DNA of 64,000 nt, taken from contig NZ_AP014924.1 of NCBI RefSeq assembly GCF_001544015.1, positions 992,001-1,056,000 on the forward strand, given 5' to 3'. Under the pieces are notes generated by a model, which ran no database searches, had not been told where the DNA came from, and was given only the letters and a program-made list of their open reading frames with translations. The DNA comes from Limnochorda pilosa. Lineage in GTDB: Bacteria; Bacillota; Limnochordia; Limnochordales; Limnochordaceae. Within the stretch, counting starts at the first letter, position 1. Each line of letters begins with the position of its first letter. Below are positions 13,226 to 36,534 of the stretch, one piece after another. The position numbers and the translations under genes were made by a program.

Positions 13226-14113
13226 TCACCCGTCCCGTCCGGCTCCCGGCAACGTGTGTCCAAACTCGACAAAGAAACGCTCATCAACCTCGTAGACGGT
13301 TCGCGGTACGAGGCCGAGTTCAAGGTTAGCGAGCATTTCCACGAGAACCTCCCCGTCAACGAGCTCAATAGGTGGTACTCCGTCCCTGATAGCTTCTTTG
13401 CGAGCCTCAGAAGTGAACGTAGCGGTAGTGAGGATCATGCCTTTGTCCGCTCTACCCATCATCGCCCCACGAAAGTCGCGGACTACTGATGGCCCCACCG
13501 AATGGGAGCACCGCTTACATTGAAAGTAGACGTAGAAGCTCACCAGGGGATTGACGCGGAGTACTCCGTGTCCGTCAATGCCTCCATCGCCACTGCGACC
13601 GGTCACCGTAACGTTCTCGAATCCAGATTCCCGAAGCAGCCGCTGGCATAAGCGCTCGAAACCGTCGGGCGGCAACTTCCCCAGGAGCTCCAAAACCTGG
13701 GCCTTGTAGTCCCGCTCTCCCTGCAGTTCTTCGGGATCGGGCAGGTCTCCGTCCGATACCTCGGTCTCTTCCTGGGAACCCGAGGTGCGAAGCCTCTCCT
13801 TCAGCTCACGGAAAAGGTCAAGTGCGCCATCCGCATTCAGGCTAGACGCCCGTCCCCTTTCAGTGAGACTCCATACCCCACGTCTTGACGAATCTACGAG
13901 GCCGGCCTTCGCTAGGTAAAACCGTGCCCAATGTACGCGGTTCTTGAACCGTGACCGGCCACTCGTAAGCTCTCCGTGCAGGATATCCGCCGGAACATCC
14001 AAAGCGGTGGCGATCCACTCTTCCACCTCGCCTGGACGCGCAGAGCCCCCAAGGTGTCTCAACGCATCCAGGATAGGACCCATGAACTCCACAAACTGAG
14101 GTCCCCGTGCCAT
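13226..14113 (-). CDS. Mrr-type restriction endonuclease (cassette)
   Basis: 295 aa from the ATG at 14113 (GAGGGAGACAC upstream). Residues ~1-90 form the Mrr N-terminal winged-helix domain (LGGSARPGEVEEWIATAL, VHWARFYLAKAGLVDSSRRGVWSLTERG). The C-terminal catalytic domain begins near 150: LPPDGFERLCQRLLRESGFENV, then GDGGIDGHGV and FYVYFQCKR, giving the D-QxK nuclease core. Type IV Mrr enzymes cut methylated foreign DNA. No methylase accompanies it, as expected for type IV. A phage-defence gene carried as a mobile cassette. Confidence 0.9.
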   Translation of the reverse strand: MARGPQFVEFMGPILDALRHLGGSARPGEVEEWIATALDVPADILHGELTSGRSRFKNRVHWARFYLAKAGLVDSSRRGVWSLTERGRASSLNADGALDLFRELKERLRTSGSQEETEVSDGDLPDPEELQGERDYKAQVLELLGKLPPDGFERLCQRLLRESGFENVTVTGRSGDGGIDGHGVLRVNPLVSFYVYFQCKRCSHSVGPSVVRDFRGAMMGRADKGMILTTATFTSEARKEAIRDGVPPIELVDGEVLVEMLANLELGLVPRTVYEVDERFFVEFGHTLPGAGRDG

Positions 14114-14158
14114 GTGTCTCCCTCCCGTGAAACCGACCACGTCCTACCGAAGCAAAAC

Positions 14159-14218
14159 GGCTAACATCATCGGCGTCAGCGGCGAGGGCAGCGAGTCCGC
14201 TGCACGCCGGTGTTGGGC
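14159..14218 (-). repeat. attC site, short divergent type
   Basis: 60 bp: GGCTAAC at the left, GTTGGGC at the right, arms CGTCAGCGGCG and GAGTCCGCTGCACG. Different in sequence from the array majority but with the same fold. Confidence 0.75.
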
Positions 14219-14242
14219 CACGAAATACCGAATGGCCGTCGC

Positions 14243-15019
14243 TTACTGCGGTTGGACAAAGGCCAGCACAGGAGGAAGCACCTTGTCGATCTCAGTGAAT
14301 TCCTGCCTGTGGTTCAGTGCTTCCATTAGCTGAACTCGAACCTTTGTTTGGCTGAGTACAGGCCCATATTCTTCCGTGCTTGCCAACGCCGGGTCGTTTC
14401 TTGTGCCGACGAGCCAGAGCGTCGGACAGAGCACGTCGCCGGGTTCGACTGGCGCCCACCCGAGCATTGCGGTCAACCATGCCAGCCTCAGGAGTATCTC
14501 ACCGGTTTGGAGACGAGTTTGGTCTTCCGGAGAGAGCGATTGAAGATTGAGCGTCCCATCTGCTCGAGCCTGCAAAATCGGCGCCCAATGGTCGCGAAGG
14601 CCGCGGATGAACTGCCCGAAATCGCCGGGAGCGGCCGGGCCGAAGGGAATCCCAACCATGACAAACTTGGTGACGCGAGCGGATTGGGCGGCCAAATAGC
14701 GACCCACGTTCGCGCCATACGAGAAACCCCAGACTGCAAACCTTTCAATGCCCACTGCATCAGCAACGGCCAGAATGTCCTGGCAGTGCCTGTCGGTTGT
14801 GTAGCTGGTGGCGTCGATTGGCCTGTCGCTTTCGCCATTCCCGCGTATGTCAACCGTGATGACCCGGAAGTTGCGCTTCAGCCGTTCGACATACCCAGCG
14901 GTGTGCCAATCCTGACGGTCGCGGCCCCCACCATGAAGTAACACAATCGGCGCTCCGGATCCGCTAACATCATAGGCAATACGGTGACCATCGATTGAAG
15001 TCGCAAAGGATGTGCTCAT
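14243..15019 (-). CDS. Alpha/beta hydrolase (cassette)
   Basis: 258 aa, ATG start. It has the oxyanion motif LLHGGGRDRQDW, the nucleophile elbow GFSYGAN (Ser), an acid in LWLVGTRNDPA and the catalytic His in ALNHRQEFTE. The cap is short. Family members include epoxide hydrolases, haloperoxidases and ester hydrolases; the substrate cannot be assigned. Confidence 0.88.
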   Translation of the reverse strand: MSTSFATSIDGHRIAYDVSGSGAPIVLLHGGGRDRQDWHTAGYVERLKRNFRVITVDIRGNGESDRPIDATSYTTDRHCQDILAVADAVGIERFAVWGFSYGANVGRYLAAQSARVTKFVMVGIPFGPAAPGDFGQFIRGLRDHWAPILQARADGTLNLQSLSPEDQTRLQTGEILLRLAWLTAMLGWAPVEPGDVLCPTLWLVGTRNDPALASTEEYGPVLSQTKVRVQLMEALNHRQEFTEIDKVLPPVLAFVQPQ

Positions 15020-15054
15020 ACCTATCCTCTTTCTGTTTGAGAAGTGTGACCCTG

Positions 15055-15150
15055 GCCTAACGTCCTTGCGGCTCAGCGGCGCCGACGGCCGCCGTCAACT
15101 TGTCCCCTCCCGACTCCCCCTTCGGCGTCCGCTGCAGCCGCTTGCTAGAG
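15055..15150 (-). repeat. attC site
   Basis: The GCGGCTCAGCGGCGCC / GGCGTCCGCTGCAGCCGC subtype; ends GCCTAAC and GCTAGAG. Confidence 0.9.
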
Positions 15151-15414
15151 GGCTTGGGCACCGCTCGACGCGTTGCCTAAGGTCGGCGCGAAGAGAGCTC
15201 GAGCCCAGTCCCGCCGTTCAGCGCGCCTCCGTATTCCACCCACGTCAGCCCAAGGTCAACCCGCCACCTTCGCCGTACCGATGGGCCCGCTTCCGCCATC
15301 GCTTGGGGCACCCACCCTCTTCTGGCCACCCGGTACCCTTTACACCGTCACTCCTCGCGCCGCCCTCCATCCAGCTTTCGACGACCGACCAGGTGTCAAC
15401 AGATCCTCATGTCC
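15151..15414 (-). ncRNA. ORF-less cassette A with long-range inverted repeat
   Basis: 264 nt between two attC sites, with no credible ORF on the cassette strand. Arm GGTCGGCGCGAAGAG at 15,181-15,195 pairs with CTCCTCGCGCCGCC at 15,351-15,364 across 155 nt. The same architecture recurs in five other ORF-less cassettes. As a minus-strand RNA the one exception is a G-U pair, and one adenosine (in GCCGACC) is bulged. Structured RNA is inferred; the type label is provisional. Confidence 0.55.
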
Positions 15415-15481
15415 CTCTAACACTCGGGTTCAGGCGCGGTGGCGCGATAGCGCCGACGTCGCCTGGAACCCATTGTTGGGC
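15415..15481 (-). repeat. attC site, short divergent type
   Basis: 67 bp: CTCTAAC at the left, GTTGGGC at the right, arms GGGTTCAGGCG and CGCCTGGAACCC. Confidence 0.8.
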
Positions 15482-15484
15482 CAT

Positions 15485-15895
15485 TCACTTCTGCGGAACC
15501 ACGGCAACGGCATCAATCTCCACAAGAAAATCAGGGTGTGCCAATGCGGGGACAAAGATACCGCTAATGACGGGGGGATTCGGACGTTGGCCCCAAACTT
15601 TTTGAAACGCCTCGAATCCAGCTTGAGCCGATTGGCCATGCAGGATATAGACGTTCCACTTTACGACGTGTTGGAGTCCGGCCCCGCCTGCCGCGAGCGC
15701 TGTTTCCAGATTCTTTAATGCTTTTTCCGTCTGTACTCTGATGTCACCCTTGCCGACAATGTTGCCAGAAGCATCCACCGCATTCTGTCCACCAACATAG
15801 ATTGTTGTTGCGTTGCCGCTGACGACAACAGCCTGAGTATATGCGGGATTCTTGTGCAAGCCCGGCGGATTAAGATGTTGAACGTTTCCATGCAT
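15485..15895 (-). CDS. RidA/YjgF-family protein (cassette)
   Basis: 136 aa from the ATG at 15895, which has AAAGGAGGAAC upstream. YjgF fold features are NPPGLHKNPAYTQAVVVSG at the start, IYVGGQNAVDASG, QTEKALKNLETALAAGGAG and the C-terminal FLVEIDAVAVVP. The conserved catalytic arginine (usually near R105) is not in its usual R.AVxV..LP context here (NPPVISGIFVPALAHP), so it may belong to a non-RidA subgroup that lacks imine deaminase activity. Confidence 0.85.
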   Translation of the reverse strand: MHGNVQHLNPPGLHKNPAYTQAVVVSGNATTIYVGGQNAVDASGNIVGKGDIRVQTEKALKNLETALAAGGAGLQHVVKWNVYILHGQSAQAGFEAFQKVWGQRPNPPVISGIFVPALAHPDFLVEIDAVAVVPQK

Positions 15896-15932
15896 AAGCT
15901 CTTGTTCCTCCTTTAGGGGCGAGAGACTGACA

Positions 15933-16026
15933 GCCCAACGTCCTGCCGTATCAGCGGCGCCGCCACCCCGCCTCCGAGCGAAGCGTCTTGCCCAACTACG
16001 GCGTCCGCTGCATACGCTTGCTAGAC
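15933..16026 (-). repeat. attC site
   Basis: GCCCAAC left, GCTAGAC right; common CGTATCAGCGGCGCC subtype. Confidence 0.9.
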
Positions 16027-16037
16027 GGCCGGCCATG

Positions 16038-16234
16038 TCACTGGAACTGTCCTACCTCAGGGACCGACAGTCCCCGACAGATCTTCCGTGCCAGCTCGTC
16101 CGGGATCTCCACATGACGAGGAATGGTTTCTATGGCGCCCGTCTGCGGATTCATCCAGAGCGAGTGCGACGGCCTTCCCGCTTGAGAACACAGCCGTGTT
16201 TCCTCAGATGCCGAAGTAAGGCACCTCGTTTCAC
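16038..16234 (-). pseudogene. hicA: HicA toxin, copy 1, frameshifted
   Basis: Begins with the GTG that overlaps the hicB stop (GTGA) and reads VKRGALLRHLRKHGCVLKREG, the HicA double-stranded-RNA-binding start. A missing C near 16,172 (GCGACGGCC, where the intact third copy has GCGACCGGCC) then breaks the frame. The rest (SHSLWMNPQTGAIETIPRHVEIP) is in another frame, separating the toxic His region from the start. The same lesion is in copy 2. Confidence 0.8.
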
Positions 16235-16446
16235 CGAACGCTGACCCTCTCAACGACAGCGTCGGGCGGAATCCCACGCAGTCCCTGATCCCGACGGTCC
16301 TCGAGGATCAAGCGGATGGCTTCCGATAGGCTTTGCAGCGCTTCATCCTGCGTCTTGCCCTGGCCGTTAGCGCCCGGAACCTCGGGAGAATACGCAATGA
16401 ACCACTGCCCATCCCGCTCAACAACCGCCGTGAACTCGTTGGCCAC
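16231..16446 (-). CDS. hicB: HicB antitoxin, copy 1 (cassette)
   Basis: 71 aa: EFTAVVERDGQWFIAYSPEVPGANGQGKTQDEALQSLSEAIRLILEDR is the HicB partially degenerated RNase H-like fold; no DNA-binding extension is present, so this is the short form. It is encoded before hicA. About 140 nt of leader separate it from the attC on its right; a TAGAAT -10-like element (GGTAGAATAG) is in that leader, so a private promoter is possible. Nearly identical to copies at 18,758 and 35,365. Confidence 0.88.
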   Translation of the reverse strand: MANEFTAVVERDGQWFIAYSPEVPGANGQGKTQDEALQSLSEAIRLILEDRRDQGLRGIPPDAVVERVSVR

Positions 16447-16592
16447 GCGACCAGCCCCCCATCCACCATCAGCACCCTTGCGCTTGCCCTACTATTCTAC
16501 CGCACCGCGCTGCATCGTGCTGAGTCCCACGTGGCCACTACCGTCTCCCAGAAGAAGCTCAATGAGCCTTCGCACATCTGCCAACTCCGTCC

Positions 16593-16688
16593 GTCTAGCG
16601 CCCTTGCGGCTCAGCGGCGCCGACGGCCGGCGTCAACTTGTCCCCTCCCGACTCCCCCTTCGGCGTCCGCTGCAGCCGCTTGTTAGGG
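16593..16688 (-). repeat. attC site
   Basis: GTCTAGC left, GTTAGGG right; GCGGCTCAGCGGCGCC subtype. Confidence 0.9.
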
Positions 16689-16709
16689 CGGTCACCGCAT
16701 CTCATCCAC

Positions 16710-17264
16710 TCACTTGCGCAGCGCTAGCTTGATGGAACATCGGCTCGCGGCGGCGTCGAGAAGCGCATGCAGGGTCTTGGATCTCTCGCGCACGTCGAGG
16801 TCGCCGGCGGACCGCCGAGCGTCTTCGAGTGCGGATCGCAGCTCCGACAGGTCGAGAACGGTGGCGGCGATGCAGTAGTAGGTCTTCGACCGCCCTTCAT
16901 TGAAGTGGGCGAGCATCTCGTCGAGCAGTTCCTCCCGGGCGCACTGTTCCTCGATGAACAGGTCGAGCCCGGCACGCTTGATCAGGGCGATGTTGCCGTC
17001 GAGCGACGCGTAGCAGGTGAAGGTGTCGCGCTGCCGTCCGAAAGCGCGGTGCTCCGCCCAGCGCGCGCATGACTCGCTCTCGGCGCAATCCCAGCAGAAT
17101 TCGATGCCCTTGCGTTTCACGGCGCACGTGATGAAGGGGCAGCCAGCAGATACGCGAATCTCGCTCTTGCATCCACCGCAGCGGCTCGCTCCCTCCGTGT
17201 GATAGCGTGGGCACAGCCGACACGACAACCCGCAGATCCCGACCTCGGGGTAACGAAACTTCAT
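16710..17264 (-). CDS. DUF3795 cysteine-rich protein (cassette)
   Basis: 184 aa from the ATG at 17264. The N-terminal half has closely spaced Cys typical of DUF3795: GICGLSCRLCPRYHTEG, CGGCKS, CPFITCAVKRKGIEFCWDCAE. It probably binds zinc or an Fe-S cluster. A helical C-terminal part follows. Function is unknown; members are common as solitary genes in Firmicutes and methanogens. An earlier in-frame codon could extend it by five residues. Confidence 0.82.
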   Translation of the reverse strand: MKFRYPEVGICGLSCRLCPRYHTEGASRCGGCKSEIRVSAGCPFITCAVKRKGIEFCWDCAESESCARWAEHRAFGRQRDTFTCYASLDGNIALIKRAGLDLFIEEQCAREELLDEMLAHFNEGRSKTYYCIAATVLDLSELRSALEDARRSAGDLDVRERSKTLHALLDAAASRCSIKLALRK

Positions 17265-17294
17265 TGGCGCCCCCCCCACCCGTGCCGTGACCCG

Positions 17295-17387
17295 GCCTAA
17301 CGTCCTGCCGTATCAGCGGCGCCGCCACCCGGCCGCCGGCCGGTGCTCCGGGCCACCTACGGCGTTCGCTGCATGCGCTTGTTGGGG
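17295..17387 (-). repeat. attC site
   Basis: GCCTAAC left, GTTGGGG right; CGTATCAGCGGCGCC arm against GGCGTTCGCTGCATGCGC. Confidence 0.9.
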
Positions 17388-17806
17388 CTGTGGGCGAATC
17401 CGCGAAACGGTCTCCTCGGTCGGCACGAAGAGACAAGAAAGGCACGGGACCCTGCTCGCTCGTACGTCCCACTCCATACGCTCAACCTCCGCGTGCCATC
17501 GCGCGGGTACTCCGGAGCCCGCGCCGTGACCCAGCCCTACCCACTTAGCGTTTCTGTGGAACTAGTACCCTTCACCACATCCGAGAAGTCCAGCGGCCTC
17601 GACGCAAAGCCACATGCGGCGAAACAGCCACCTCAATCAGTACCCAATTGACTGAGCGCACCCCTCGCGCACTCAGCCACTGTCCGAGCTCGGCCCTCCA
17701 TAGAGGAAACGTGATAGCCGACCATTCATTCTCGACGCTGTGACTCTTCGCGCCGCCCACCGCAGCGATACCGACAACTGGCCAGGTCTCGCACGTTCCA
17801 CCTGTA
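17388..17806 (-). ncRNA. ORF-less cassette B with long-range inverted repeat
   Basis: Longest member (about 420 nt). Arms GGTCGGCACGAAGAG (17,418-17,432) and CTCTTCGCGCCGCC (17,744-17,757) are 311 nt apart. The A in GGTCGGCA makes a U that pairs with G in the minus-strand RNA but an A-C mismatch on the plus strand. A 62-codon minus ORF at 17,572-17,760 has no family features and spans the arm, so it is taken as chance. Confidence 0.55.
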
Positions 17807-17899
17807 TCCTAACGTCCTGCCGTATCAGCGGCGCCGACCGCCAGCCACCAACCGGTGTACCCCGCCCCCTACGGCGTCCGCTGCATACGCTTGCTAGAC
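17807..17899 (-). repeat. attC site
   Basis: TCCTAAC left, GCTAGAC right. The CTAG supplies the stop codon of the deaminase gene. Confidence 0.9.
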
Positions 17900-18433
17900 C
17901 TCATCTTTAATCGGTGCACCAATCCTGAATCCATCCTGCGCCGGTCTCCCGCCTGCAAGAATGTACTCCAGAGCCCGGGGAGCATATCGCCTGAAGAGAG
18001 ACATCGACTCCTCCGCGAGCACATCGCCGAGATAGGTTTTCAGGTGTCGACGAACGTACGGATTCGCCTCGATGGTCTCCTGAGAGTATACGACTGGATC
18101 GTGCATAGCAAAGACCACGTGTGGAACATCTGCCATCACGGCAGCTCCAAGACACATCGGGCAGGGTTCGAGTGTGGTAAAGAGTACTGCGCGGCAGTAG
18201 TCTCGCCACAGGCGCTCACCTCCGGCAAGGAGTGCATTCAACTCCGCATGGCATAACTGGCTTCGTGCTTCGTTGTGGCGCGCTCGCCCGCGCGACACAA
18301 CTTCGCCGTCGATCACCACAACGGCTCCAACAGGCAGCTCTCCAGCTTTGCCGGCAAGATCGGCTTCGATCAGTGCTTCGCGCATGAAGGCGTCGAGGTC
18401 CAAGGAACCTATCGCATCCGCGACTGGGTCCAT
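17894..18433 (-). CDS. Nucleoside/guanine deaminase-like zinc hydrolase (cassette)
   Basis: 179 aa, ATG at 18433 with GGAGGCGAGCTC upstream. The cytidine/deoxycytidylate deaminase fold is shown by GELPVGAVVVIDGEVVSRGRARH, the zinc site CHAELNALL (His, Glu) and PCPMCLGAAV (two Cys). It resembles TadA/guanine deaminase members; the extra C-terminal 60 residues suggest a free nucleobase or nucleoside substrate rather than tRNA. The stop TAG is made by the first bases of its attC. Confidence 0.87.
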   Translation of the reverse strand: MDPVADAIGSLDLDAFMREALIEADLAGKAGELPVGAVVVIDGEVVSRGRARHNEARSQLCHAELNALLAGGERLWRDYCRAVLFTTLEPCPMCLGAAVMADVPHVVFAMHDPVVYSQETIEANPYVRRHLKTYLGDVLAEESMSLFRRYAPRALEYILAGGRPAQDGFRIGAPIKDEV

Positions 18434-18460
18434 GAGCTCGCCTCCGACTCTGAAATGGAG

Positions 18461-18553
18461 GTCTAACGTCCTGCCGTATCAGCGGCGCCGACAGCCAGCC
18501 ACGAGTCGATGTACCTGACCATCTGCGGCGTCCGCTGCATACGCTTGTTAGAC
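18461..18553 (-). repeat. attC site
   Basis: GTCTAAC left, GTTAGAC right; CGTATCAGCGGCGCC subtype. Confidence 0.92.
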
Positions 18554-18564
18554 GGCCGGCCATG

Positions 18565-18761
18565 TCACTGGAACTGTCCTACCTCAGGGACCGACAGTCC
18601 CCGACAGATCTTCCGTGCCAGCTCGTCCGGGATCTCCACATGACGAGGAATGGTTTCTATGGCGCCCGTCTGCGGATTCATCCAGAGCGAGTGCGACGGC
18701 CTTCCCGCTTGAGAACACAGCCGTGTTTCCTCAGATGCCGAAGTAAGGCACCTCGTTTCAC
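18565..18761 (-). pseudogene. hicA: HicA toxin, copy 2, frameshifted
   Basis: Same sequence and same missing C as copy 1. Because both share the lesion, one cassette is a duplicate of the other made after the toxin was inactivated. Confidence 0.8.
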
Positions 18762-18973
18762 CGAACGCTGACCCTCTCAACGACAGCGTCGGGCGGAATC
18801 CCACGCAGTCCCTGATCCCGACGGTCCTCGAGGATCAAGCGGATGGCTTCCGATAGGCTTTGCAGCGCTTCATCCTGCGTCTTGCCCTGGCCGTTAGCGC
18901 CCGGAACCTCGGGAGAATACGCAATGAACCACTGCCCATCCCGCTCAACAACCGCCGTGAACTCGTTGGCCAC
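18758..18973 (-). CDS. hicB: HicB antitoxin, copy 2 (cassette)
   Basis: Identical in predicted protein to copy 1 (71 aa). The whole 565-bp cassette, including the non-coding leader, is repeated; differences begin in the next attC, where this copy has the CGTATCAGC subtype instead of GCGGCTCAGC. An antitoxin kept while its toxin is broken could still counter the intact copy 3 toxin. Confidence 0.88.
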   Translation of the reverse strand: MANEFTAVVERDGQWFIAYSPEVPGANGQGKTQDEALQSLSEAIRLILEDRRDQGLRGIPPDAVVERVSVR

Positions 18974-19119
18974 GCGACCAGCCCCCCATCCACCATCAGC
19001 ACCCTTGCGCTTGCCCTACTATTCTACCGCACCGCGCTGCATCGTGCTGAGTCCCACGTGGCCACTACCGTCTCCCAGAAGAAGCTCAATGAGCCTTCGC
19101 ACTCCTGCCAACTCCGTCC

Positions 19120-19213
19120 GTCTAACGTTCTGCCGTATCAGCGGCGCCGCCTGCCAGTCACCGATCGAGTCTCTCCGGCCTCCTACGGCGTCCGCTGAAT
19201 ACGCTTGCTAGAC
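19120..19213 (-). repeat. attC site
   Basis: GTCTAAC left, GCTAGAC right. Its loop-side segment (GATCGAGTCTCTCCGGCC) also occurs in the sites at 23,149 and 48,371. Confidence 0.92.
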
Positions 19214-19250
19214 GCCCAACGCAGAGCACCGCTTGTCGTTGAGTTGCGAG

Positions 19251-19904
19251 CTAATCCTCGGCGAGCAGCTCGTCAAGCGCGTCGCGCTTGCGTCGATTGC
19301 ATTCGCTGTGGACAAGCCGAAGGTTTTCAGGCGTAGTAGGCCCTCCCCTTGACCACGGTATGATATGGTCAAACTCGACCTGGTTATCCGGCACCGGTTG
19401 GTGGCATATCTGACAGATTTGCCCGTCACGTCTCACCACCTTCAGCATAACCTCATGCGGTATGGCTCGGCTCATCCGACGGGTCGCGCGCGTCTCAGTA
19501 GCCAACTCCGCGACAAAGAAGACCGGGCAAACGTGCCCAAACACTCGGCAGGACACGTCCTGCAAGACCTGGGGAACAGCCTCAGGATAATCCTCCGCAT
19601 TGAACTCAGCGACGCGCTGCTCGAACTCCTCCCTCCTCTCGTCGTCCAACGGTTCTCCGCTTCCAAGCCTCCCTGATTTTAGGCACTGGCTGAAGTACTC
19701 GTTGTGCTCAATGGCATCCGCACGTAACGGGGGGAGTAACGGGAATTGCTCCACCAGGGGACCGTACGGGCAGTACTTGATCTCCCAGCAAGGTTTGCAG
19801 ATCTGACGGATACGCCTACCCCAATCGGAGAGGACTTGACTGTCCGGGCTATCGGGCTTATATCCTAAGGCGACTTTCACGGAAGCGTGTAGCCTGTCAG
19901 CCAA
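19251..19904 (-). CDS. HNH endonuclease (cassette)
   Basis: 217 aa if started at the TTG at 19904, which follows GGGGGG; no ATG fits, and the frame runs on into the attC. The C-terminal 60 residues are a classical zinc-finger HNH domain: CQICHQPVPDNQVEFDHIIPWSRGGPT, ENLRLVHSECNRRK, with two CxxC pairs and DH..H. An N-terminal CKPCWEIKYCPYGPLVEQFPLL motif occurs in a group of HNH proteins found near defence loci. Likely a DNA-nicking or restriction-like enzyme. Confidence 0.85.
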   Translation of the reverse strand: MADRLHASVKVALGYKPDSPDSQVLSDWGRRIRQICKPCWEIKYCPYGPLVEQFPLLPPLRADAIEHNEYFSQCLKSGRLGSGEPLDDERREEFEQRVAEFNAEDYPEAVPQVLQDVSCRVFGHVCPVFFVAELATETRATRRMSRAIPHEVMLKVVRRDGQICQICHQPVPDNQVEFDHIIPWSRGGPTTPENLRLVHSECNRRKRDALDELLAED

Positions 19905-19922
19905 AGTGGTAGCCCCCCGTGC

Positions 19923-20031
19923 GTCTAACGGACTGCGCTTCAGCTGCCGTCGAGGCGCGCTCTCCAAGAAGACCTCGAAAACCGTACGATCTTGCGCGCC
20001 GAAGGCGGTCAGCTGCAAGCACTTGTTGGGC
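19923..20031 (-). repeat. attC site, divergent long type
   Basis: GTCTAAC left, GTTGGGC right; arms TGCGCTTCAGCTGCCG and GGTCAGCTGCAAGCA. Sequence outside the core differs from the array majority, suggesting a cassette acquired from elsewhere. Confidence 0.82.
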
Positions 20032-20054
20032 AGTGCGGACGTGATGACAATCGC

Positions 20055-20570
20055 TCAGCAGTCGAACACCGACCAGCAGATGGCGTTGCGTAAACGCTGG
20101 TCATCCAGAACTAGCTCGCGAACCGCCTCCGGCAACTGCTCACGCTGCCACGCACACTCGTGCCGACCGGCCTGTTCACCCTGGCCGTCAGGTGCGGCAG
20201 CCCGTGCAGCCTTGATCGCGTACGCGGCAGCACCGAGTTCATGTGCGGCGACGTGGGCGACGGCGGCGGCCTGACCTGCGGCATAGGCGGCATAGCGCGC
20301 GGCCCCGGTGAGATCTCGAGCCGCTGCATTGGCGGCGCCCGCCGCAGCGCGAGCCTCAGACATCGTGATCTCGCCGCGCACCCACGCCCGGGCCTGGTCG
20401 ATGGCATGGCGCGGACGCGGATCCGAAGGCTGCACCGCCTCGAAGAGAGGCAACACGTGCTCCGCGCAGTCGGCCGCCCATTGAGCGAGAAGCCGGTGAT
20501 GCGAGTCTTCCAGCGTGCCGCCGCGACGGATGGTGATGAATCGGGGATCGCGCTCCTTGGGGAGAATCAC
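20055..20570 (-). CDS. Imm-5-like putative immunity protein (cassette)
   Basis: 171 aa from the GTG at 20570 (AAGGAGGCAGACCT upstream). The alanine-rich helical repeat with LAQWAADCAEHVLPLFE, RHAIDQARAWVRGE and AHVAAHELGAAAYAIKAARAA is the pattern of proteins annotated as Imm-5-like immunity proteins. These protect against contact-dependent toxins in some systems; here no toxin is adjacent. Function by similarity only. Confidence 0.7.
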   Translation of the reverse strand: MILPKERDPRFITIRRGGTLEDSHHRLLAQWAADCAEHVLPLFEAVQPSDPRPRHAIDQARAWVRGEITMSEARAAAGAANAAARDLTGAARYAAYAAGQAAAVAHVAAHELGAAAYAIKAARAAAPDGQGEQAGRHECAWQREQLPEAVRELVLDDQRLRNAICWSVFDC

Positions 20571-20594
20571 AGGTCTGCCTCCTTCGCTTCATCT

Positions 20595-20688
20595 GCCCAA
20601 CGTCCTTGCGTTTCAGCGGCGCCGCCACCCAGCCCCCGGTCGAGACGCCCCGCCTAACTACGGCGTCCGCTGGAAACGCTTGTTGGGC
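20595..20688 (-). repeat. attC site
   Basis: GCCCAAC left, GTTGGGC right; arms TTGCGTTTCAGCGGCGCC and GGCGTCCGCTGGAAACGC keep pairing through matched changes. Confidence 0.92.
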
Positions 20689-21209
20689 ATCGTTTTGGCG
20701 ATTTCGGCTTCCTTTCTCGTCAGCTGATACCAGCAAACTCCGGACTCCGTGCCCTGCTGGTCCGAGGGTTGAAATGGGCGAAATCCCACACGTTCGGCTA
20801 CTCGTTGAGACCGCACATTGTTTGCATACGTCTTGAGAGTAATCCGGTCGAATCCTTCCTCCGCGAGAGCCCAGTGGCAGAGTAGGCGTAGTGCTTCTGT
20901 CGCGATCCCGCGTCCACGCGCAGATGCCGCCAGCCAGTACATTGCTTCACCTGTAGCCGCGTTGTCTTCATCCCGAACCAACGAGATGTTCCCTAAGATC
21001 TCATTGCTTTTGGTCTCGACGATCGCGAAAGAGAACACATTATCGCCCTTATTCACTGCTTCTATGGCCGCCTCAGTCTCAGCAACCGTCAACTCGCGGC
21101 GTTCGGTCGTCCACCTGTACACCTCTTCATCTCGTGCTTCGATATACCATTGAGCATCAGCGGTTTGCCAAGATCTAAGGTGCACACCCGCATCACCCTG
21201 AATGAACAC
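20658..21209 (-). CDS. GNAT family N-acetyltransferase, RimJ/RimL-like (cassette)
   Basis: 183 aa from the GTG at 21209 (AGGAGGAGGCAACG upstream). Motif A reads YWLAASARGRGIATEALRLLCHWAL and motif B TYANNVRSQRVAERVGFRP, the RimJ pattern. The ORF runs 31 nt into its own attC and takes its last residues (NKRFQRTP) and TAG stop from it, so the attC encodes the protein tail. Substrate unknown. Confidence 0.85.
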   Translation of the reverse strand: MFIQGDAGVHLRSWQTADAQWYIEARDEEVYRWTTERRELTVAETEAAIEAVNKGDNVFSFAIVETKSNEILGNISLVRDEDNAATGEAMYWLAASARGRGIATEALRLLCHWALAEEGFDRITLKTYANNVRSQRVAERVGFRPFQPSDQQGTESGVCWYQLTRKEAEIAKTMPNKRFQRTP

Positions 21210-21251
21210 CGTTGCCTCCTCCTGTACCTTCCCTAATCGTGCTCTCCGTAC

Positions 21252-21344
21252 GCCCAACGTCCTGCCGTATCAGCGGCGCCGACGACCAGCTACCGGCTGG
21301 TGCTCCTGAGTTACTCCGGCGTCCGCTGCATACGCTTGTTAGCT
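21252..21344 (-). repeat. attC site (first VOC cassette)
   Basis: GCCCAAC left, GTTAGCT right. From the arm inwards identical to the site at 21,808. Confidence 0.92.
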
Positions 21345-21423
21345 CGCCTGCCACGTCCCATCCAAGCCAACCTTCGATCCCCTCTTCCCAGGACCCCGGT
21401 AGCATCCATCCGCCGGCGATGCC

Positions 21424-21780
21424 TCAGCCCTCGAGCCCTCTAAGTTCCACCATACGTCCGTCAGGATCATACAGAAACGCAGAGCGTCCCCAGGGAAACA
21501 TCGTTGGACCTAAGACTTCGTATCCGGCCGAAGACAACCTCTCACACTCTGCATCAAGATCTTCGACTTGGAAGGCAACATGATCAACGTCCTTCGGCCA
21601 TCCTGGTTCGGCCGGCTCCTCCGACACGGAATGGATGAACAGGTCTACTCCTTCCACGTCAAAGCTGTACGCGTCGCGCCCCGGGTCAGGGGTGGACGCA
21701 CCCAAGAGATCTGCATAGAACATGGCGAGTTCGCCCGGTTGCTTCGTGAACCTCGCGACCTCGATGACCCGACGCTTCAA
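21424..21780 (-). CDS. VOC-family (glyoxalase-like) protein, tandem copy 1 (cassette)
   Basis: 118 aa; TTG start at 21780 with GGAGGTGGGGGC upstream. Two beta-alpha-beta-beta-beta modules: FTKQPGELAMFYADLLG at the start and KDVDHVAFQVEDLDAECERLSSAGYEVLGPT in the second, ending SAFLYDPDGRMVELRG with the metal-ligand Glu. Bleomycin/fosfomycin-resistance-like and dioxygenase members share this fold. A 556-bp tandem repeat with the next cassette. Confidence 0.82.
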   Translation of the reverse strand: MKRRVIEVARFTKQPGELAMFYADLLGASTPDPGRDAYSFDVEGVDLFIHSVSEEPAEPGWPKDVDHVAFQVEDLDAECERLSSAGYEVLGPTMFPWGRSAFLYDPDGRMVELRGLEG

Positions 21781-21807
21781 GCCCCCACCTCCAATGCTGC
21801 AAAGTCG

Positions 21808-21900
21808 AGCTAACGTCCTGCCGTATCAGCGGCGCCGACGACCAGCTACCGGCTGGTGCTCCTGAGTTACTCCGGCGTCCGCTGCATACGCTTGTTAGCT
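21808..21900 (-). repeat. attC site (second VOC cassette)
   Basis: AGCTAAC left, GTTAGCT right; copy of the site 556 bp away. Confidence 0.92.
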
Positions 21901-21979
21901 CGCCTGCCACGTCCCATCCAAGCCAACCTTCGATCCCCTCTTCCCAGGACCCCGGTAGCATCCATCCGCCGGCGATGCC

Positions 21980-22336
21980 TCAGCCCTCGAGCCCTCTAAG
22001 TTCCACCATACGTCCGTCAGGATCATACAGAAACGCAGAGCGTCCCCAGGGAAACATCGTTGGACCTAAGACTTCGTATCCGGCCGAAGACAACCTCTCA
22101 CACTCTGCATCAAGATCTTCGACTTGGAAGGCAACATGATCAACGTCCTTCGGCCATCCTGGTTCGGCTGGCTCCTCCGACACGGAATGGATGAACAGGT
22201 CTACTCCTTCCACGTCAAAGCTGTACGCGTCGCGCCCCGGGTCAGGGGTGGACGCACCCAAGAGATCTGCATAGAACATGGCGAGTTCGCCCGGTTGCTT
22301 CGTGAACCTCGCGACCTCGATGACCCGACGCTTCAA
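21980..22336 (-). CDS. VOC-family protein, tandem copy 2 (cassette)
   Basis: Predicted protein identical to copy 1; the DNA differs visibly only at GGCTGGCTC here against GGCCGGCTC in copy 1 (silent). The repeat unit is the complete cassette, as expected from excision-reinsertion or unequal exchange between attC sites. Confidence 0.82.
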   Translation of the reverse strand: MKRRVIEVARFTKQPGELAMFYADLLGASTPDPGRDAYSFDVEGVDLFIHSVSEEPAEPGWPKDVDHVAFQVEDLDAECERLSSAGYEVLGPTMFPWGRSAFLYDPDGRMVELRGLEG

Positions 22337-22363
22337 GCCCCCACCTCCAATGCTGCAAAGTCG

Positions 22364-22457
22364 AGCTAACGTCCTTGCGGCTCAGCGGCGCCGACGGCCG
22401 CCGTCAACTTGTCCCTCTACCCTCTCCATCGGCGTCCGCTGCAGCCGCTTGTTAGGA
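22364..22457 (-). repeat. attC site
   Basis: AGCTAAC left, GTTAGGA right; GCGGCTCAGCGGCGCC subtype. Confidence 0.92.
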
Positions 22458-22721
22458 GTCTTGAACAGTCCCTGACGCGGTCCCTTTGGTCGGCGCGAAG
22501 AGCACCCGGGCTCGGCATGACCCATCCCGTGACCGCGCGTCCCTCTCACGTCAGCTCGATCTCTCAGCCGGCCACACTTCCTGTGCTCATCCGCCCGTCG
22601 GGCCCCACACCATGGCCTCGGGGCCCTTGTAATGACCCGGTAGCCGGCAGTACGTCACTCTTCGCGCCGCCAGCCGCACCGACCTCGACCATCACCCAGG
22701 TCTCGAGCGGTTCAGCTGTAC
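22458..22721 (-). ncRNA. ORF-less cassette C with long-range inverted repeat
   Basis: 264 nt. Arms GGTCGGCGCGAAGAG (22,488-22,502) and CTCTTCGCGCCGCC (22,658-22,671) enclose 155 nt, the same loop length as cassette A although the loop sequences differ. No ORF with a start site on the cassette strand. Confidence 0.55.
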
Positions 22722-22812
22722 TCCTAACGTCCTTGCGGCTCAGCGGCGCCGACGGCCGCCGTCATGCAACCCGCTTGGCCTTCACGGCGTCCGCTGCAGC
22801 CGCTTGTTATGC
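22722..22812 (-). repeat. attC site
   Basis: TCCTAAC left, GTTATGC right; GCGGCTCAGC subtype. Confidence 0.9.
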
Positions 22813-23148
22813 CGGAGCCCTCATCGTTGCTGATGGTGTTCGGCCTCCAACTGATGGGGCCTCCGGTGGTCGGCCCGAGGATTCGGACGGCTCTCCCCCT
22901 TGCAGCCCCTTCGCGATGGGCCCTGTCGCACCGCTACACCGTCAATCACGCTGGAGAGGCGCCAAGAACCTCTCTGGCTCCGGCCTGCTTCCCGAATCCT
23001 CGGGCCGCCACGCTCCCTTTCGCCAGTTCCGCATCACCCGCTACGGGACCGCAGGTCCCCCGTTCGACGGCCTGGCACCCAAAGGGACGCCAGATGAATC
23101 GAGCCTCCCCTACCCTCAGCACCACTCGTTCGTGCCCTACCCTAATCG
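22813..23148 (-). ncRNA. ORF-less cassette E with long-range inverted repeat
   Basis: 336 nt. Arms GGTCGGCCCGAGGATTCGG (22,868-22,886) and CCGAATCCTCGGGCCGCC (22,992-23,009) enclose 105 nt. Compared with cassettes A-D the stem has changed on both sides (GCG to CCG with CGC to CGG, AAG to AGG with CTT to CCT), keeping pairing. The nearest relative is cassette F at 34.7 kb. Confidence 0.57.
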
Positions 23149-23242
23149 GCATAACGTCCTGCCGTATCAGCGGCGCCGACAGCCAGCCACCGATCGAGTC
23201 TCTCCGGCCTCCTACGGCGTCCGCTGAATACGCTTGTTAGAC
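23149..23242 (-). repeat. attC site
   Basis: GCATAAC left, GTTAGAC right; CGTATCAGCGGCGCC subtype. Confidence 0.92.
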
Positions 23243-23318
23243 GCCTGCGAAACCTGGTCGGGAGAGAAAGGCGAACATGGCGGAGCATGCGTTACCAACA
23301 TGCAGTGCATTTGGAGTT

Positions 23319-23810
23319 TCACGGCGACTTGACGCCGCTATCGGTGCTGCTTGATGGTGCTGGTGCCGCCCTGTACGACTGATCACGGGCGACGACCGTT
23401 TCAGGCTCGAACCGGATGAACGAGCATCCCTCCCACGACTGCGCGTCACCCCAGAGTCGCGGGTCCCAACTCTCCTTATGTGGGCCCAGATAACGGGCGA
23501 GCAGCCGCTCCACCCGCTTGATATCAATCCGTTCAACGCGGGCGCGCCCGCGCATTCCGACGTGCCATACCCGTCCAGTCCGGCGATCAAAGTCCACGAT
23601 CCCGATAGCGCACCTAGGATTGTGCGTAATGCGGGCTGGGAAGGTGTTCTTGGCCTCAGCAATGATCCAGATTGCACCGTCTTCCCAGAGGAACCAAACG
23701 GGTGAATCGCACGGCTGCCCTGTTTCCGAAGCTGTTGCCAAGTGGGCGAACAGAGGGCGTGCGAGGAGCTCCTCAAGACTGACCGGCAGCGTGTCTTGCA
23801 GAATCCTCAC
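23319..23810 (-). CDS. Pyridoxamine 5'-phosphate oxidase-like FMN split-barrel protein (cassette)
   Basis: 163 aa from the GTG at 23810 (AAGGAGGGCTCTCG upstream). LEELLARPLFAHLATASETGQPCDSPVWFLWEDGAIWIIAEAKNTFPARITHNPRCAIGIVDFD is the first half of the split barrel, followed by VWHVGMRGRARVERID. Relatives bind FMN, F420 or haem. Reaction unknown. Confidence 0.85.
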   Translation of the reverse strand: MRILQDTLPVSLEELLARPLFAHLATASETGQPCDSPVWFLWEDGAIWIIAEAKNTFPARITHNPRCAIGIVDFDRRTGRVWHVGMRGRARVERIDIKRVERLLARYLGPHKESWDPRLWGDAQSWEGCSFIRFEPETVVARDQSYRAAPAPSSSTDSGVKSP

Positions 23811-23861
23811 CGAGAGCCCTCCTTCGTAGACACGTATAGTAGGTTCCTGGAGCCAGAGTGC

Positions 23862-23955
23862 GTCTAACGTCGGGTCGTATCAGCGGCGCCGCCACTCAGC
23901 GCCCACGTGGAGGATCTCGCCCTCCTTCGGCGTCCGCTGCATACGCTTGTTAGGC
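23862..23955 (-). repeat. attC site
   Basis: GTCTAAC left, GTTAGGC right; arm GGGTCGTATCAGCGGCGCC. It provides the TAA stop of the phosphatase gene. Confidence 0.92.
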
Positions 23956-24471
23956 GGTGGCTCCCCAAGTTCGGACCAAGCGAGCTTGCCACTCTGACTC
24001 AGGCCAACCGTCCTTGCCTCGCTCTTTGTGTACCCTGTCAAGAAACGAAATAGCATCCTCGGCAGGGAAACCCAACTGTCGGAGCACGCAGCCTATTACT
24101 GTGCCGGTTCGGCCTCGCCCTCCGTAGCAATGAACCACTATGCCGTGCTTACTCTCCAGTCCTAACATGACCGCATTGACTGCTTGCGCTACCAGCGTCC
24201 TCTGTTCCCCCTCGTCCCGCGGATCACCCCCATGGACGAGGTCTTCCAGATGCGCCGAAAACGCCAACCTCAGTGGCCGTGGGTCGTATCTCCCACGGTG
24301 TAGAGACACGACCTCGTCGAAACCGGCATCATGGAGCGCTTTCCAGGGCCAGTCGCTAGATGGCAGGCGCATTCCGGCGAGAGGGATAGGGTCTATGAGT
24401 ACCCAGTAGAGTTGACTCGGGATCTTCAGGCCCGCGATGTGCGGGCCTTGGTCTGGTTCGATCAAGGTCAT
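23950..24471 (-). CDS. Dual-specificity/tyrosine phosphatase-like protein (cassette)
   Basis: 173 aa from the ATG at 24471 (GGAAGGGG upstream); a GTG six codons earlier is possible. The P-loop VVHCYGGRGRTGTVIGC carries the HCx5R signature with catalytic Cys and Arg, and the general-acid loop is near HLEDLVHGGDP. The N-terminal PIPLAGMRLPSSDWPWKALHDAGFDEVVSL places it with small DSP proteins. Stop codon contributed by the attC. Confidence 0.86.
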   Translation of the reverse strand: MTLIEPDQGPHIAGLKIPSQLYWVLIDPIPLAGMRLPSSDWPWKALHDAGFDEVVSLHRGRYDPRPLRLAFSAHLEDLVHGGDPRDEGEQRTLVAQAVNAVMLGLESKHGIVVHCYGGRGRTGTVIGCVLRQLGFPAEDAISFLDRVHKERGKDGWPESEWQARLVRTWGATA

Positions 24472-24490
24472 CGTGCCAACCCCTTCCACC

Positions 24491-24583
24491 GCCTAACGTC
24501 CTGCCGTATCAGCGGCGCCGCCACCTGGCCACCGGCCGGTGCTCCAGGCCACCTACGGCGTCCGCTGCATGCGCTTGTTAGGA
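24491..24583 (-). repeat. attC site
   Basis: GCCTAAC left, GTTAGGA right; arm CGTATCAGCGGCGCC against GGCGTCCGCTGCATGCGC. First cassette site next to the orphan attI. Confidence 0.92.
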
Positions 24584-25390
24584 GTCGGTCTTTACCGCAT
24601 CGTCCAGCCTGCGATGGAGCAACGATGCCACGGTCATCATGTCGAGAGCATCTTGTTCAGTCATCTTCCACGTAATCCGTGGTGCATGCGCCGTGGGATT
24701 ACGAAACGCACCAAAGAAGCCTTTCATGAGATTCATGAGGCCGGTATGTTCGCTACGTTCGGGATCCGTTCTCAACGAATTGAAGGCTATGACGGGGTAC
24801 AGCTTCTTACCCATACCAAAGGCCTCATCCACCAATTCGGCCCCATCTGAGGCAAGGCCGCTCTTGTCCCTGATCTTCTGGGCGACACTCTTTGCAGCCT
24901 CAAGTACCGCGTGGAAGTAGTTCCCTTCTACCAACTCCGCCCGACAAAACTGCAGGACATCGGGGTGTACACCCCGATCACGCAACTTGCGACGCAGTTG
25001 ATCCGCCGCCGCTTCCGCTTCGGAGATAGTCCGGGCCCGTGGCACGGTCTGCAACGTCCCCTGGTCCGTCAACCGCAGTCCCTCAAAAGACAGGATCCGA
25101 TTGAGTTCTGCCTGCTTCATCTTGAAGTAGTCAGGTGACTGGACATAGAGCACAGGATTCATGACGCGCTGGATGAAAGCACACACGTTATTGGCGCATT
25201 GGTCTCGGCGTTGGCGAGCCACGAGAGCCTCGTACAGCCGGATTCGTTTGGTCATGCCAGGATGCGGGTCCGCAATGCCGCACTCCTGAAGATAGCGGCC
25301 GATCTCGCTCCCGGTCAGACCGGTGTTGGTGTCGCCGAGCACATTACACACCTGCTCCAAGTTGGCTTCCGCGAATGCCGGAATACGCAT
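24578..25390 (-). CDS. TIGR02391-family protein (Ymh domain), first cassette of array 1
   Basis: 270 aa. The C-terminal ~120 residues match the TIGR02391/Ymh pattern: GNYFHAVLEAAKSVAQKIRDKSGL, DGAELVDEAFG, FNSLRTDPERSEHTGLMNLMKGFFGAFRNPTAHAP, ALDMMTVASLLHRRLDDA. Such proteins occur in phage-defence and mobile contexts and may act on nucleic acid; role unproven. Its AGGAG ribosome site is part of the recombination junction GTTAGGAG, and its TAA stop lies in the attC. Confidence 0.83.
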   Translation of the reverse strand: MRIPAFAEANLEQVCNVLGDTNTGLTGSEIGRYLQECGIADPHPGMTKRIRLYEALVARQRRDQCANNVCAFIQRVMNPVLYVQSPDYFKMKQAELNRILSFEGLRLTDQGTLQTVPRARTISEAEAAADQLRRKLRDRGVHPDVLQFCRAELVEGNYFHAVLEAAKSVAQKIRDKSGLASDGAELVDEAFGMGKKLYPVIAFNSLRTDPERSEHTGLMNLMKGFFGAFRNPTAHAPRITWKMTEQDALDMMTVASLLHRRLDDAVKTDS

Positions 25391-25401: not shown

Positions 25402-25452
25402 TCCTAACTACGTCTTAAGCAGTTCCTCATATAGCCTGTGGACCGCAACATC
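25402..25452 (-). repeat. Orphan attI-like site
   Basis: The array edge TCCTAAC (25,402-25,408) is followed by about 44 bp alignable with the DNA beside the intact intI at 49,038: both share, read on the minus strand, TTGCG, ACAGG, ATATG, GAAC, CTTAAG and GTAGTTRGG at matching spacing. It lacks the arms of an attC. Interpreted as the attI of an integron that lost its integrase. Confidence 0.75.
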
Positions 25453-25804
25453 GCTCCGTAACCACCGGATCGCACGCAAGAGGTAATCCCACTCAGGACC
25501 GTCGTCATCGCTGATCCGCCTTCTTCGCGTCGCTCTTTACGCAGTTCCAGATGACCCAATCTGCCAGCCGCGGCGCTCAGTACCCACGCGGCAAATGCAC
25601 CGGACTCCGGGTGCTGCCTCCACCACCGGTCAGGTGGCGCTGTAGACCGTCATCGCCCGCCGCGTGTGTAGGCTGCGAACCGCCTCACCGGCAGGCAAGC
25701 CTCTCTTCGACCCTCTGATGAACCGACGTGAACGGCGCGGTTGTCGTGACTGGTCAACAGATCCGGGCCTCGATCCCCAATTCCCGTTGGGGTCGTTTCG
25801 CCGC
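25453..25804. other. Scar of the deleted integrase body
   Basis: About 350 nt without a recognisable ORF lie where a ~1.1 kb intI would be expected between the orphan attI and the intI-5'-like segment. No integrase motifs can be read in any frame. Confidence 0.5.
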
Positions 25805-26065
25805 TACTGGCACTGGGCACGGTTCAGGAGTCATGGGATGCGCTGCCGGCAGCGCCGGAGGCACAGGCCGTGCCTGGACGAAGCACTCCTGGGCCGCTGT
25901 GTTCCGAGTGTCGCAGCTTCACCCGGACGGCCTCGGCTCCTGCGAGCTGCTGTCGGCAGCGTCCAGGGTAGGGCAGAACCTAGGTGCGTGGTTCGACAGG
26001 CGGGTAGGAACTCCTTTGACATCTTGCCATCTTCAGGACTGCCTGACGCCCTCGAAGCGCAGCTG
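25805..26065 (-). pseudogene. Remnant of an integron integrase 5' end and promoter region
   Basis: Clear DNA similarity to 50,225-50,490: GGGATGCGCTGCC, GCCTGGACGA, GCTTCACCCGGAC, TCCAGGG, AGAACCTA.GTGCGTG.TTCGACAGG, GCCATCTTC occur in the same order. In the intact locus this segment holds the GTG start and first ~36 codons of IntI plus its upstream DNA. Similarity ends abruptly at about 26,065. Confidence 0.72.
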
Positions 26066-26259
26066 GACGCCGAACACGGACGATCGCATTCGAAGCGGGC
26101 CGTAACCACGCGGTGCCGCTGTTGGGCGCCGCACGCCCGGTAACCCGCTCAGCCGTCCACGCTGCCACCCGGGCCGGGCGTCGCCCTCGGGGTATGGCCT
26201 CACCCCTTTCGTTCCTTTTCCGAAGGCATGATCAGACCCACCTACCATCCTACCAGATC

Positions 26260-34590: not shown

Positions 34591-34604
34591 GTCACCCCCA
34601 ATCG

Positions 34605-34697
34605 GCCTAACGTCCTTGCGGCTCAGCGGCGCGGCCACCCGGCCCTCCGGCGGTACACCTCGCCATCACCGGCGTCTGCTGCAGCCGCTTGTTATGC
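34605..34697 (-). repeat. attC site
   Basis: GCCTAAC left, GTTATGC right; GCGGCTCAGC subtype. Confidence 0.9.
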
Positions 34698-35066
34698 CGG
34701 GGCCCATCATCAGCCGCGAAAGATGTCGCGCCGCCCACTCGCTGGTCTGCCGTCGCTTACCCCGTGGTCGGCCCGAGGATTCGGCCGACCTGCCCAGTGC
34801 TCCGTTCCTTCGGAAGGGCCCTGTGGTAGCGCCACACCATCGACAGTCCCGGCCGGGTGCCATGAACCTCGCCGGCTCCGAGCTGCTTCCCGAATCCTCG
34901 GGCCGCCACCCCTCACGTGAACGGCAGCTCACAACCTACTACGTCACTGGCAGCCGGTGCTCTCTGAACCCCCAGACCCCTCGATCCGGCTAGGTCAAGC
35001 AACCACGGACAGCACCCGTGTCCACGCGCCCCAACTACCACTCGTCGTCGACCTCGCCCCTAATCG
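34698..35066 (-). ncRNA. ORF-less cassette F with long-range inverted repeat
   Basis: 369 nt. Arms GGTCGGCCCGAGGATTCGG (34,766-34,784) and CCGAATCCTCGGGCCGCC (34,890-34,907) are identical to cassette E and enclose the same 105 nt, while the loop has diverged except for GGGCCCTGT and GGCTCCG islands. The cassette ends also match E (TAATCGGCATAAC). Confidence 0.57.
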
Positions 35067-35159
35067 GCATAACGTCCTGCCGTATCAGCGGCGCCGATAG
35101 CCAGCCACGAGGCAATGCACCTGGCCATCTACGGCGTCCGCTACATACGCTTGCTAGAC
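35067..35159 (-). repeat. attC site
   Basis: GCATAAC left, GCTAGAC right; CGTATCAGCGGCGCC subtype with one base change (CTACATACGC). Confidence 0.9.
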
Positions 35160-35170
35160 GGCCGGCCATG

Positions 35171-35368
35171 TCACTGGAACTGTCCTACCTCAGGGACCGA
35201 CAGTCCCCGACAGATCTTCCGTGCCAGCTTGTCCGGGATCTCCACATGACGAGGAATGGTTTCTATGGCGCCCGTTTGCGGATTCATCCAGAGCGAGTGC
35301 GACCGGCCTTCCCGCTTGAGAACACAGCCGTGTTTCCTCAGATGCCGAAGCAAAGCACCTCGTTTCAC
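35171..35368 (-). CDS. hicA: HicA toxin, copy 3, intact (cassette)
   Basis: 65 aa, GTG start overlapping the hicB stop by 4 nt (GTGA). KRGALLRHLRKHGCVLKREGRSHSLWMNPQTGAIETIPRHVEIPDKLARKICRGL is a full HicA: the SHSLW strand region and the catalytic His in PRHVEI. It cleaves mRNA independently of the ribosome when not bound by HicB. The only one of three copies with an unbroken frame. Confidence 0.9.
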   Translation of the reverse strand: MKRGALLRHLRKHGCVLKREGRSHSLWMNPQTGAIETIPRHVEIPDKLARKICRGLSVPEVGQFQ

Positions 35369-35580
35369 GGAACGCTGACCCTCTCAACGACAGCGTCGGG
35401 CGGAATCCCACGCAGTCCCTGATCCCTACGGTCCTCGAGGATCAAGCGGATGGCTTCCGATAGGCTTTGCAGCGCTTCATCCTTCGTCTTGCCCTGGCCG
35501 TTAGCGCCCGGAACCTCGGGAGAATACGCAATGAACCACTGCCCATCCCGCTCAACAACCGCCGTGAACTCGTTGGCCAC
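35365..35580 (-). CDS. hicB: HicB antitoxin, copy 3 (cassette)
   Basis: 71 aa, differing from copies 1 and 2 by two residues (TKDEAL for TQDEAL, final Pro for Arg). It neutralises the HicA encoded directly downstream with an overlapping start. Confidence 0.9.
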   Translation of the reverse strand: MANEFTAVVERDGQWFIAYSPEVPGANGQGKTKDEALQSLSEAIRLILEDRRDQGLRGIPPDAVVERVSVP

Positions 35581-35726
35581 GCGACCAGCCCCCCATCCAC
35601 CATCAGCACCCTTGCGCTTGCCCTACTATTCTACCGCACCGCGCTGCATCGTGGTGAGTCCCACGTGGCCACTACCGTCTCCCAGAAGAAGCTCAATGAG
35701 CCTTCGCACATCTGCCAACTCCGTCC

Positions 35727-35819
35727 GTCTAGCGCCCTTGCGGCTCAGCGGCGCCACCGCCCAACCGTCAGACGGTGCACCCCGGCCATCCCGGAGTCCG
35801 CTGCAGCCGCGTGTTAGAG
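35727..35819 (-). repeat. attC site
   Basis: GTCTAGC left, GTTAGAG right; GCGGCTCAGC subtype. Confidence 0.9.
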
Positions 35820-36149
35820 GGCTGCTGCACTGTTCGAAGCAGTGCCTTGGGTCGGCGCGAAGACGACGGCGATCGTGCCGACTCGACCCCTACTCGCTCG
35901 TCCAGTACACCCCTGACGAGTTCGGGGAAGCAGCCCACAGCCCAATGGAGGGGCCAAGCCCATGTCCCCCCCAACCCCTTGGTGCTCTGTTCGGGGAGCT
36001 CCCTTGGGGATCCGCGGCTCTGAGCAAATCCCTGCGCCACCAGGTCCCCGGTAGTGCTCGTCCCACCTCGTGTCCTTTCGTAACGCGTCTTCGCGCCGCC
36101 GTCACCGCGGTCTCAGCGCTCGTCCCAGTCTCGACCGACCCTCCTGTCC
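35820..36149 (-). ncRNA. ORF-less cassette D with long-range inverted repeat
   Basis: 330 nt. Arms GGTCGGCGCGAAGACG (35,850-35,865) and CGTCTTCGCGCCGCC (36,086-36,100) enclose 220 nt. Where cassettes A-C pair G with C at the arm tip, this one has C with G plus a further pair: a compensatory change. The end shares TCGACCGACC and CTGTCCCTCTAAC with cassette A. Confidence 0.57.
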
Positions 36150-36242
36150 CTCTAACGTCCTGCCGTATCAGCAGCGCCGGCTGCCGGCTGCCGACCGGCC
36201 GACCCAGCCACCCACGGCGTCCGCTGCATACGGTTGTTAGGT
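36150..36242 (-). repeat. attC site
   Basis: CTCTAAC left, GTTAGGT right; CGTATCAGCAGCGCC variant of the common subtype. Confidence 0.9.
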
Positions 36243-36534
36243 GGCCTTCGTTGGAGACTCATCTCCACCATCGTCAACGTGCATGCTCTCTCGCTGCACC
36301 GATCGCAACACGTCCCTCGATCTCCGAACTATCTCTGCTGCCCTGTTGAGGCTCGCGACGTCTACTTCGTCGCCCGAGAGCATTCTCTGAAGCTCGGACA
36401 AGAGCCGTTCCTCGAGCTCTTCCAGTAGCGGGTAGTATCCAGCCTGTTCAATTGTATTCATATGTGGCTCCAGATGCGGAAGGACAGCGTTGACGAGCAT
36501 CTTGACAGCTTCGCGATTCATGACATTCGTCGGA
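36237..36534 (-). pseudogene. 3' part of an IS-split cassette gene
   Basis: The frame (PTNVMNREAVKMLVNAVLPHLEPHMNTIEQAGYYPLLEELEERLLSELQRMLSGDEV...) runs to a stop in the attC. Upstream it meets the IS1634-type element; the frame resumes beyond it at 38,458-38,491 and, beyond the IS256 element, at 39,929-39,994. Reassembled it is a ~130-residue protein with one N-terminal membrane helix. Family unknown. Confidence 0.65.

Follow-up and report, generated by a model that had tools for sequence, protein, structure and literature searches.

Many arrays of attC sites have no integrase of their own, and as a rule one cannot tell a dead array from one that is still exchanged in trans. A large array of this kind (array B) lies in the window, a stretch of 64,000 nucleotides corresponding to positions 992001-1056000 of a genome assembled as a single contig of 3,817,036 bp (G000:C1). 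The chromosome also carries related arrays, which permits the dates of integrase loss and of cassette exchange to be set against each other, with a result that favours exchange having gone on. Positions below refer to the window unless chromosome positions are named, and features are listed in Table 1.

Anatomy and decay of platform B

Pairwise alignment identifies 25403-26079 as a decayed, orphaned integron platform (B) that matches the intact platform C in type. The preliminary description of this DNA had reported a 51-bp attI-like match at the right edge of the array and about 260 bp matching the intI start and upstream region in like order and orientation, and both are real: 25403-25537 aligns with 49039-49173 at 67% identity (score 38, against a maximum of 23 for dinucleotide-shuffled sequence), and 25701-26079 with 50111-50494 at 68% (score 116, shuffle maximum 33). 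The 350 bp placed between the two matches are not a blank gap. B and C are collinear from the attI across the 3' end of intI (25403-25695 against 49039-49336, score 109, shuffle maximum 37), most clearly up to about 25668/49311; taken alone, 25538-25676 reaches a score against the intI 3' region that is matched by 1 of 1000 shuffles. From 25677 the alignment picks up again at 50086, within the N-terminal codons of intI (50086-50494). Read against C (49039-50494), B comprises the attI, ~85 bp from the very end of intI, an internal deletion of ~774 bp, the intI N-terminus and a leader of ~320 bp. Since the alignment holds on both sides of the gap, B is a platform with an internal intI deletion that kept both ends of the gene; the integrase body is indeed missing, as described, but the loss is smaller than the 1 kb proposed.

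We scored B by codon position at sites where platforms A and C agree. A functional gene is expected to show far fewer changes at codon positions 1 and 2, and intI of A and C differ at few coding sites, with especially few differences at these two positions. In B the fractions changed at positions 1/2/3 are.34/.32/.30 in the N-terminal remnant and.38/.44/.32 in the C-terminal remnant; the non-coding parts next to them give.28/.29. The remnants thus change equally at the three positions and at the non-coding rate, which suggests that the B integrase died early and, as far as ~160 bp of coding remnant can tell, that the gene has been without constraint for most of its branch. By its deletion, frame breaks and equal change across codon positions, intI of B is a pseudogene. 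The non-coding distance (leader and attI) from B to A and C is 0.37-0.46 substitutions per site, and dS between intI of A and C is 0.42.

The attI core of B has changed at 10 of 52 sites (19%), compared with 112 of 361 (31%) elsewhere in the platform (one-sided p=0.05). The core may be marginally better conserved than the remaining platform, a margin so slight that it counts among the weak points of the trans reading given below. B probably retains a usable attI; the attI status of B and of platform D is based on homology and position.

Table 1. Coordinates of the platforms, arrays and shared cassettes (window positions unless marked chr., for positions on G000:C1)
Feature	Position	Strand	Remarks
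attI of platform B (core)	25403-25467	-	cassette junction 25403-25408; similarity runs on to 25537; aligns to attI of C (49039-49173) and of A
intI 3' end remnant of B, decayed, last ~25-28 codons	25588-25668	-	collinear with 49227-49311, at equal distance from attI; codon-position bias absent
intI internal deletion junction of B	25669-25676		~774 bp missing relative to 49312-50085
intI N-terminal coding remnant of B, frame broken	25677-25763	-	75% identity to 50086-50172; differences equal at codon positions 1-3
Former intI leader/promoter region of B	25764-26079	-	71% to C, 69% to A; holds dyad GAACC-N9-GGTTC (25976-25994)
Cassette array B	11627-24587	-	20 attC sites with E<1e-3 and one weak site (11627-11729)
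attI-proximal cassette gene of B	24578-25390	-	TIGR02391/Hypoth_Ymh family; start codon ~13 bp from attI core
Cassette X, GNAT acetyltransferase	12503-13153	-	97.4% identical to distal cassette of array A
Cassette Y, toxin-antitoxin pair (read by eye as HicBA)	15937-16622	-	copies at 18465-19149 (B) and 35071-35761 (C)
Array C, distal four attC sites	34603-36246	-	covariance model
Array C, proximal two attC sites	47209-48468	-	covariance model
attI of platform C	49039-49173	-	aligned with attI of A and B
intI of C, intact integron integrase IntI	49225-50334	-	TIGR02249, 482 bits, E 9e-145; homologous domain from about 50172
Platform A	chr. attC sites 946249-952560; attI 953306-953431; intI 953497-954436	-	38 kb left of window; strand given for intI
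Platform D	chr. attI 3542826-3542883; five attC sites 3545402-3552012	opposite to other platforms	targeted alignment, attC covariance model

Sibling platforms and their inverted layout

The orphaned platform had been taken as one of two. Its type agrees with that of the intact platform, as proposed, but by homology there are four sibling platforms on the chromosome: A is frameshifted, B internally deleted, C intact and D represented by its attI only. A whole-genome search returned one intact and one frameshifted IntI above the family cut-off, and no intI is detectable at D (3.54 Mb). In intI of A, two 1-bp deletions put the C-terminal end, including the catalytic tyrosine, out of frame; in this one assembly the frameshifts may be sequencing errors. 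The first cassette region of D contains a Mutator-family transposase with 98.7% DNA identity to 38492-39928 of the window.

Upstream of intI, the homology of A, B and C stops at one shared point (chromosome position 954740, window positions 26079 and 50494), and the flanks beyond it are unrelated, scoring no better than shuffles. The common unit consists of attI, intI and leader only, as if it were a discrete module. A dyad GAACC-N9-GRTTC is conserved in the leader (50391-50409 and 25976-25994, with a spacer one base longer in A). It differs from the LexA-type box upstream of this genome's lexA, and no box of that type occurs upstream of the intI copies with up to one mismatch allowed. No match to an Rfam family was obtained at the integron sites; the sole weak match in the window lies elsewhere, with E 0.16 and a score well under the gathering score.

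In C and A, intI points toward attI and the cassettes, attI lies at the intI 3' end and most cassette genes are co-directional with intI; this is the inverted-integrase layout, and the B remnants lie in matching order. The IntI of A and C are sisters with 100/100 support, in a clade with sequences from Actinomycetota, Planctomycetota, Omnitrophota, Spirochaetota and others. All entries of this clade that could be classified have the inverted layout. In many relatives the attC matches lie on the intI strand downstream of intI, and in others, mostly proteobacterial, on the other strand upstream. A strict R-box regular expression missed most attC sites in relatives and was replaced by a covariance model trained on the attC sites of this genome. 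Among 30 relatives of the class searched with the model, one genome only, outside the order, gave a match, at a single site. As expected, the attI sequence lacks conservation outside this genome, with only marginal matches among 33 loci in relatives, and a DNA search with the flanking gene in four relatives found no syntenic empty site.

Probable cassette exchange after loss of the integrase

Covariance-model matches are present at arrays A, B, C and D. The 21 cassettes attributed to array B were borne out if its weak site is counted. The nearest intact intI lies ~24 kb off, past another attI, and B is accordingly a CALIN (at least two attC sites without a neighbouring intI); intI stands beside attI at C, and at B only its two ends do. 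Array C totals six attC sites and a weak one at 40013. The attC sites are ~90 bp repeats of high identity, of a type common to all arrays. Their bottom strand folds into the R/L-box attC hairpin, which carries extrahelical bases (three sites, z -2.0 to -2.6; top strand of one site, z -0.9); for array B, single-strand DNA folding of two sites shows this form.

Several further features surround these arrays. Array C is split by a segment of ~10.6 kb bounded by two direct copies of a DDE transposase element (36535-38450 and 45219-47133, 86% identical). Its attI-proximal cassette (48463-49040) contains an antitoxin-like gene (PF09720) and a ParE-like frame with an in-frame stop, on the strand opposite to the array. 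To the right of C, three degraded attC-like sites at 59834-61493 (+), between methyltransferase-type and other genes, appear to be an old, inverted, decayed array. Restriction or anti-phage-like genes (Mrr, HNH, GmrSD, TIR effector, HsdM) occur in arrays at 13226-14140 and 19251-20018 of the window and at locus L115 (5402-12012), and a lone attC site with a good score lies at chromosome position 2438704 (L116, 2704-2802).

Cassettes are shared among the arrays. The match of cassette X between A and B includes its own attC (dS 0.030), and cassette Y is 94% identical over the unit between B and C (antitoxin gene dS 0.019). The shared units end at attC cores, contain their own attC, have unrelated neighbours and differ in order by array. 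The two copies of Y in B have identical coding sequence and different attC loops (15935-16024 and 18463-18551); the loop mismatch of Y1 hints at recombination inside attC. Cassette dS of 0.02-0.03, set against the dS of intI and the unconstrained B remnants, suggests that cassette traffic through B outlasted the B integrase. The exchange would be younger than the loss, as judged from the short remnant and a few cassette families.

From the observed anatomy, homology, decay state and cassette sharing we infer an action in trans: B is a decayed platform of a sedentary inverted-integrase family, and its array was probably served later by a sibling IntI. After the death of the B integrase, the attI and attC sites of array B would stay substrates for this enzyme. 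It would cut single-stranded, folded attC hairpins and release cassettes as circles, which could be re-inserted into attC or attI sites of any array. The enzyme today would be IntI of C, the sole intact one, and that of A may have contributed earlier. The preliminary description had offered service in trans as speculation; it has become a reasonable inference because the platforms are about ten times as old as the cassettes they share, and because intI of B is unconstrained.

Three other explanations deserve comparison with this reading. That the match between B and C is chance or a generic repeat can be practically discounted, since nothing beyond its short length speaks for it: pairwise and three-way alignments score far above shuffled sequence, and in the 3.8 Mb genome the platform sequence is confined to integron platforms beside attC arrays (three loci by BLAST, the fourth, attI only, by targeted alignment). 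Neither of the two outcomes that the preliminary description had named as fatal to its reading was therefore obtained. Array B might instead have been frozen integrase-wise since the loss of intI, with RecA-dependent homologous recombination or gene conversion between arrays spreading the shared cassettes. RecA exchange between the highly identical attC repeats would give similar boundaries, and the attC-internal chimerism of Y1 and a tandem 99% duplicate in array B (21256/21812) would fit this scheme. We nevertheless consider it unlikely, as the shared units stop at attC cores with their own attC, in neighbourhoods and orders particular to each array, and an intact IntI and intact attC hairpins coexist in one cell. 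Action of a sibling IntI in trans remains the simplest and most likely route for the exchange on sequence grounds.

The other doubt concerns origin. B, A and C may go back to separate acquisitions from related donors and not to duplication within the lineage, given that flanks are unshared beyond the platform module, that B is 31-34% diverged and that none of 60 genomes of the class (one of them a same-genus genome ~86% complete) has an IntI over the cut-off. Against this, A and C are sisters relative to all other IntI in the tree, attC type and cassettes are common to all arrays, and neutral decay inflates the apparent age of B. Separate acquisition seems the less likely origin, though for B either may hold, and it is somewhat less doubtful than the recombination scheme. 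Returning to service in trans, we put forward tentatively that one chromosomal IntI may maintain a network of four sibling-platform arrays, with array evolution surviving integrase loss, although the phylum, Bacillota, has almost no integrons.

Comparison with known systems

Earlier publications have described genomes with several intI, intI pseudogenes, attC arrays that lack intI, and the Limnochorda pilosa integron. Pseudogenes make up about one third of intI genes, and about one in five integron carriers has several intI (PMC2426708; 22% in PMC9024848). The Limnochorda pilosa HC45 genome, very probably the one analysed here, holds the only complete integron reported in Firmicutes in PMC9024848, in a passage that mentions one complete integron; here there are four platforms. 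The literature searched yielded no four-copy decay series or multi-platform structure of this kind. Platform decay can be followed on this one chromosome through four graded stages, in a phylum with very few integrons.

The inverted layout was described for Treponema denticola (PMC3607928). As there, intI is transcribed toward attI in the cassette direction, attI lies at the intI 3' end, and the IntI clade includes Treponema sequences; in contrast to those integrons, four platforms occur on one chromosome, three of them without a working intI. CALINs are clusters of attC sites lacking an integrase, and loss of a recognisable intI is one published origin (PMC8618304, PMC9024848). B resembles them as a large attC array with no functional intI alongside, but it retains attI and both ends of intI, so that the route of loss is documented in place. 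Xanthomonas integrons have lost intI through deletion or frameshift but kept the array, and there the loss accompanies stable arrays (PMC12444791). That paper also states that mobilisation in trans is possible for arrays lacking intI. Here, unlike in Xanthomonas, cassettes are shared with other arrays after the loss of intI, and an intact IntI is present elsewhere in the genome.
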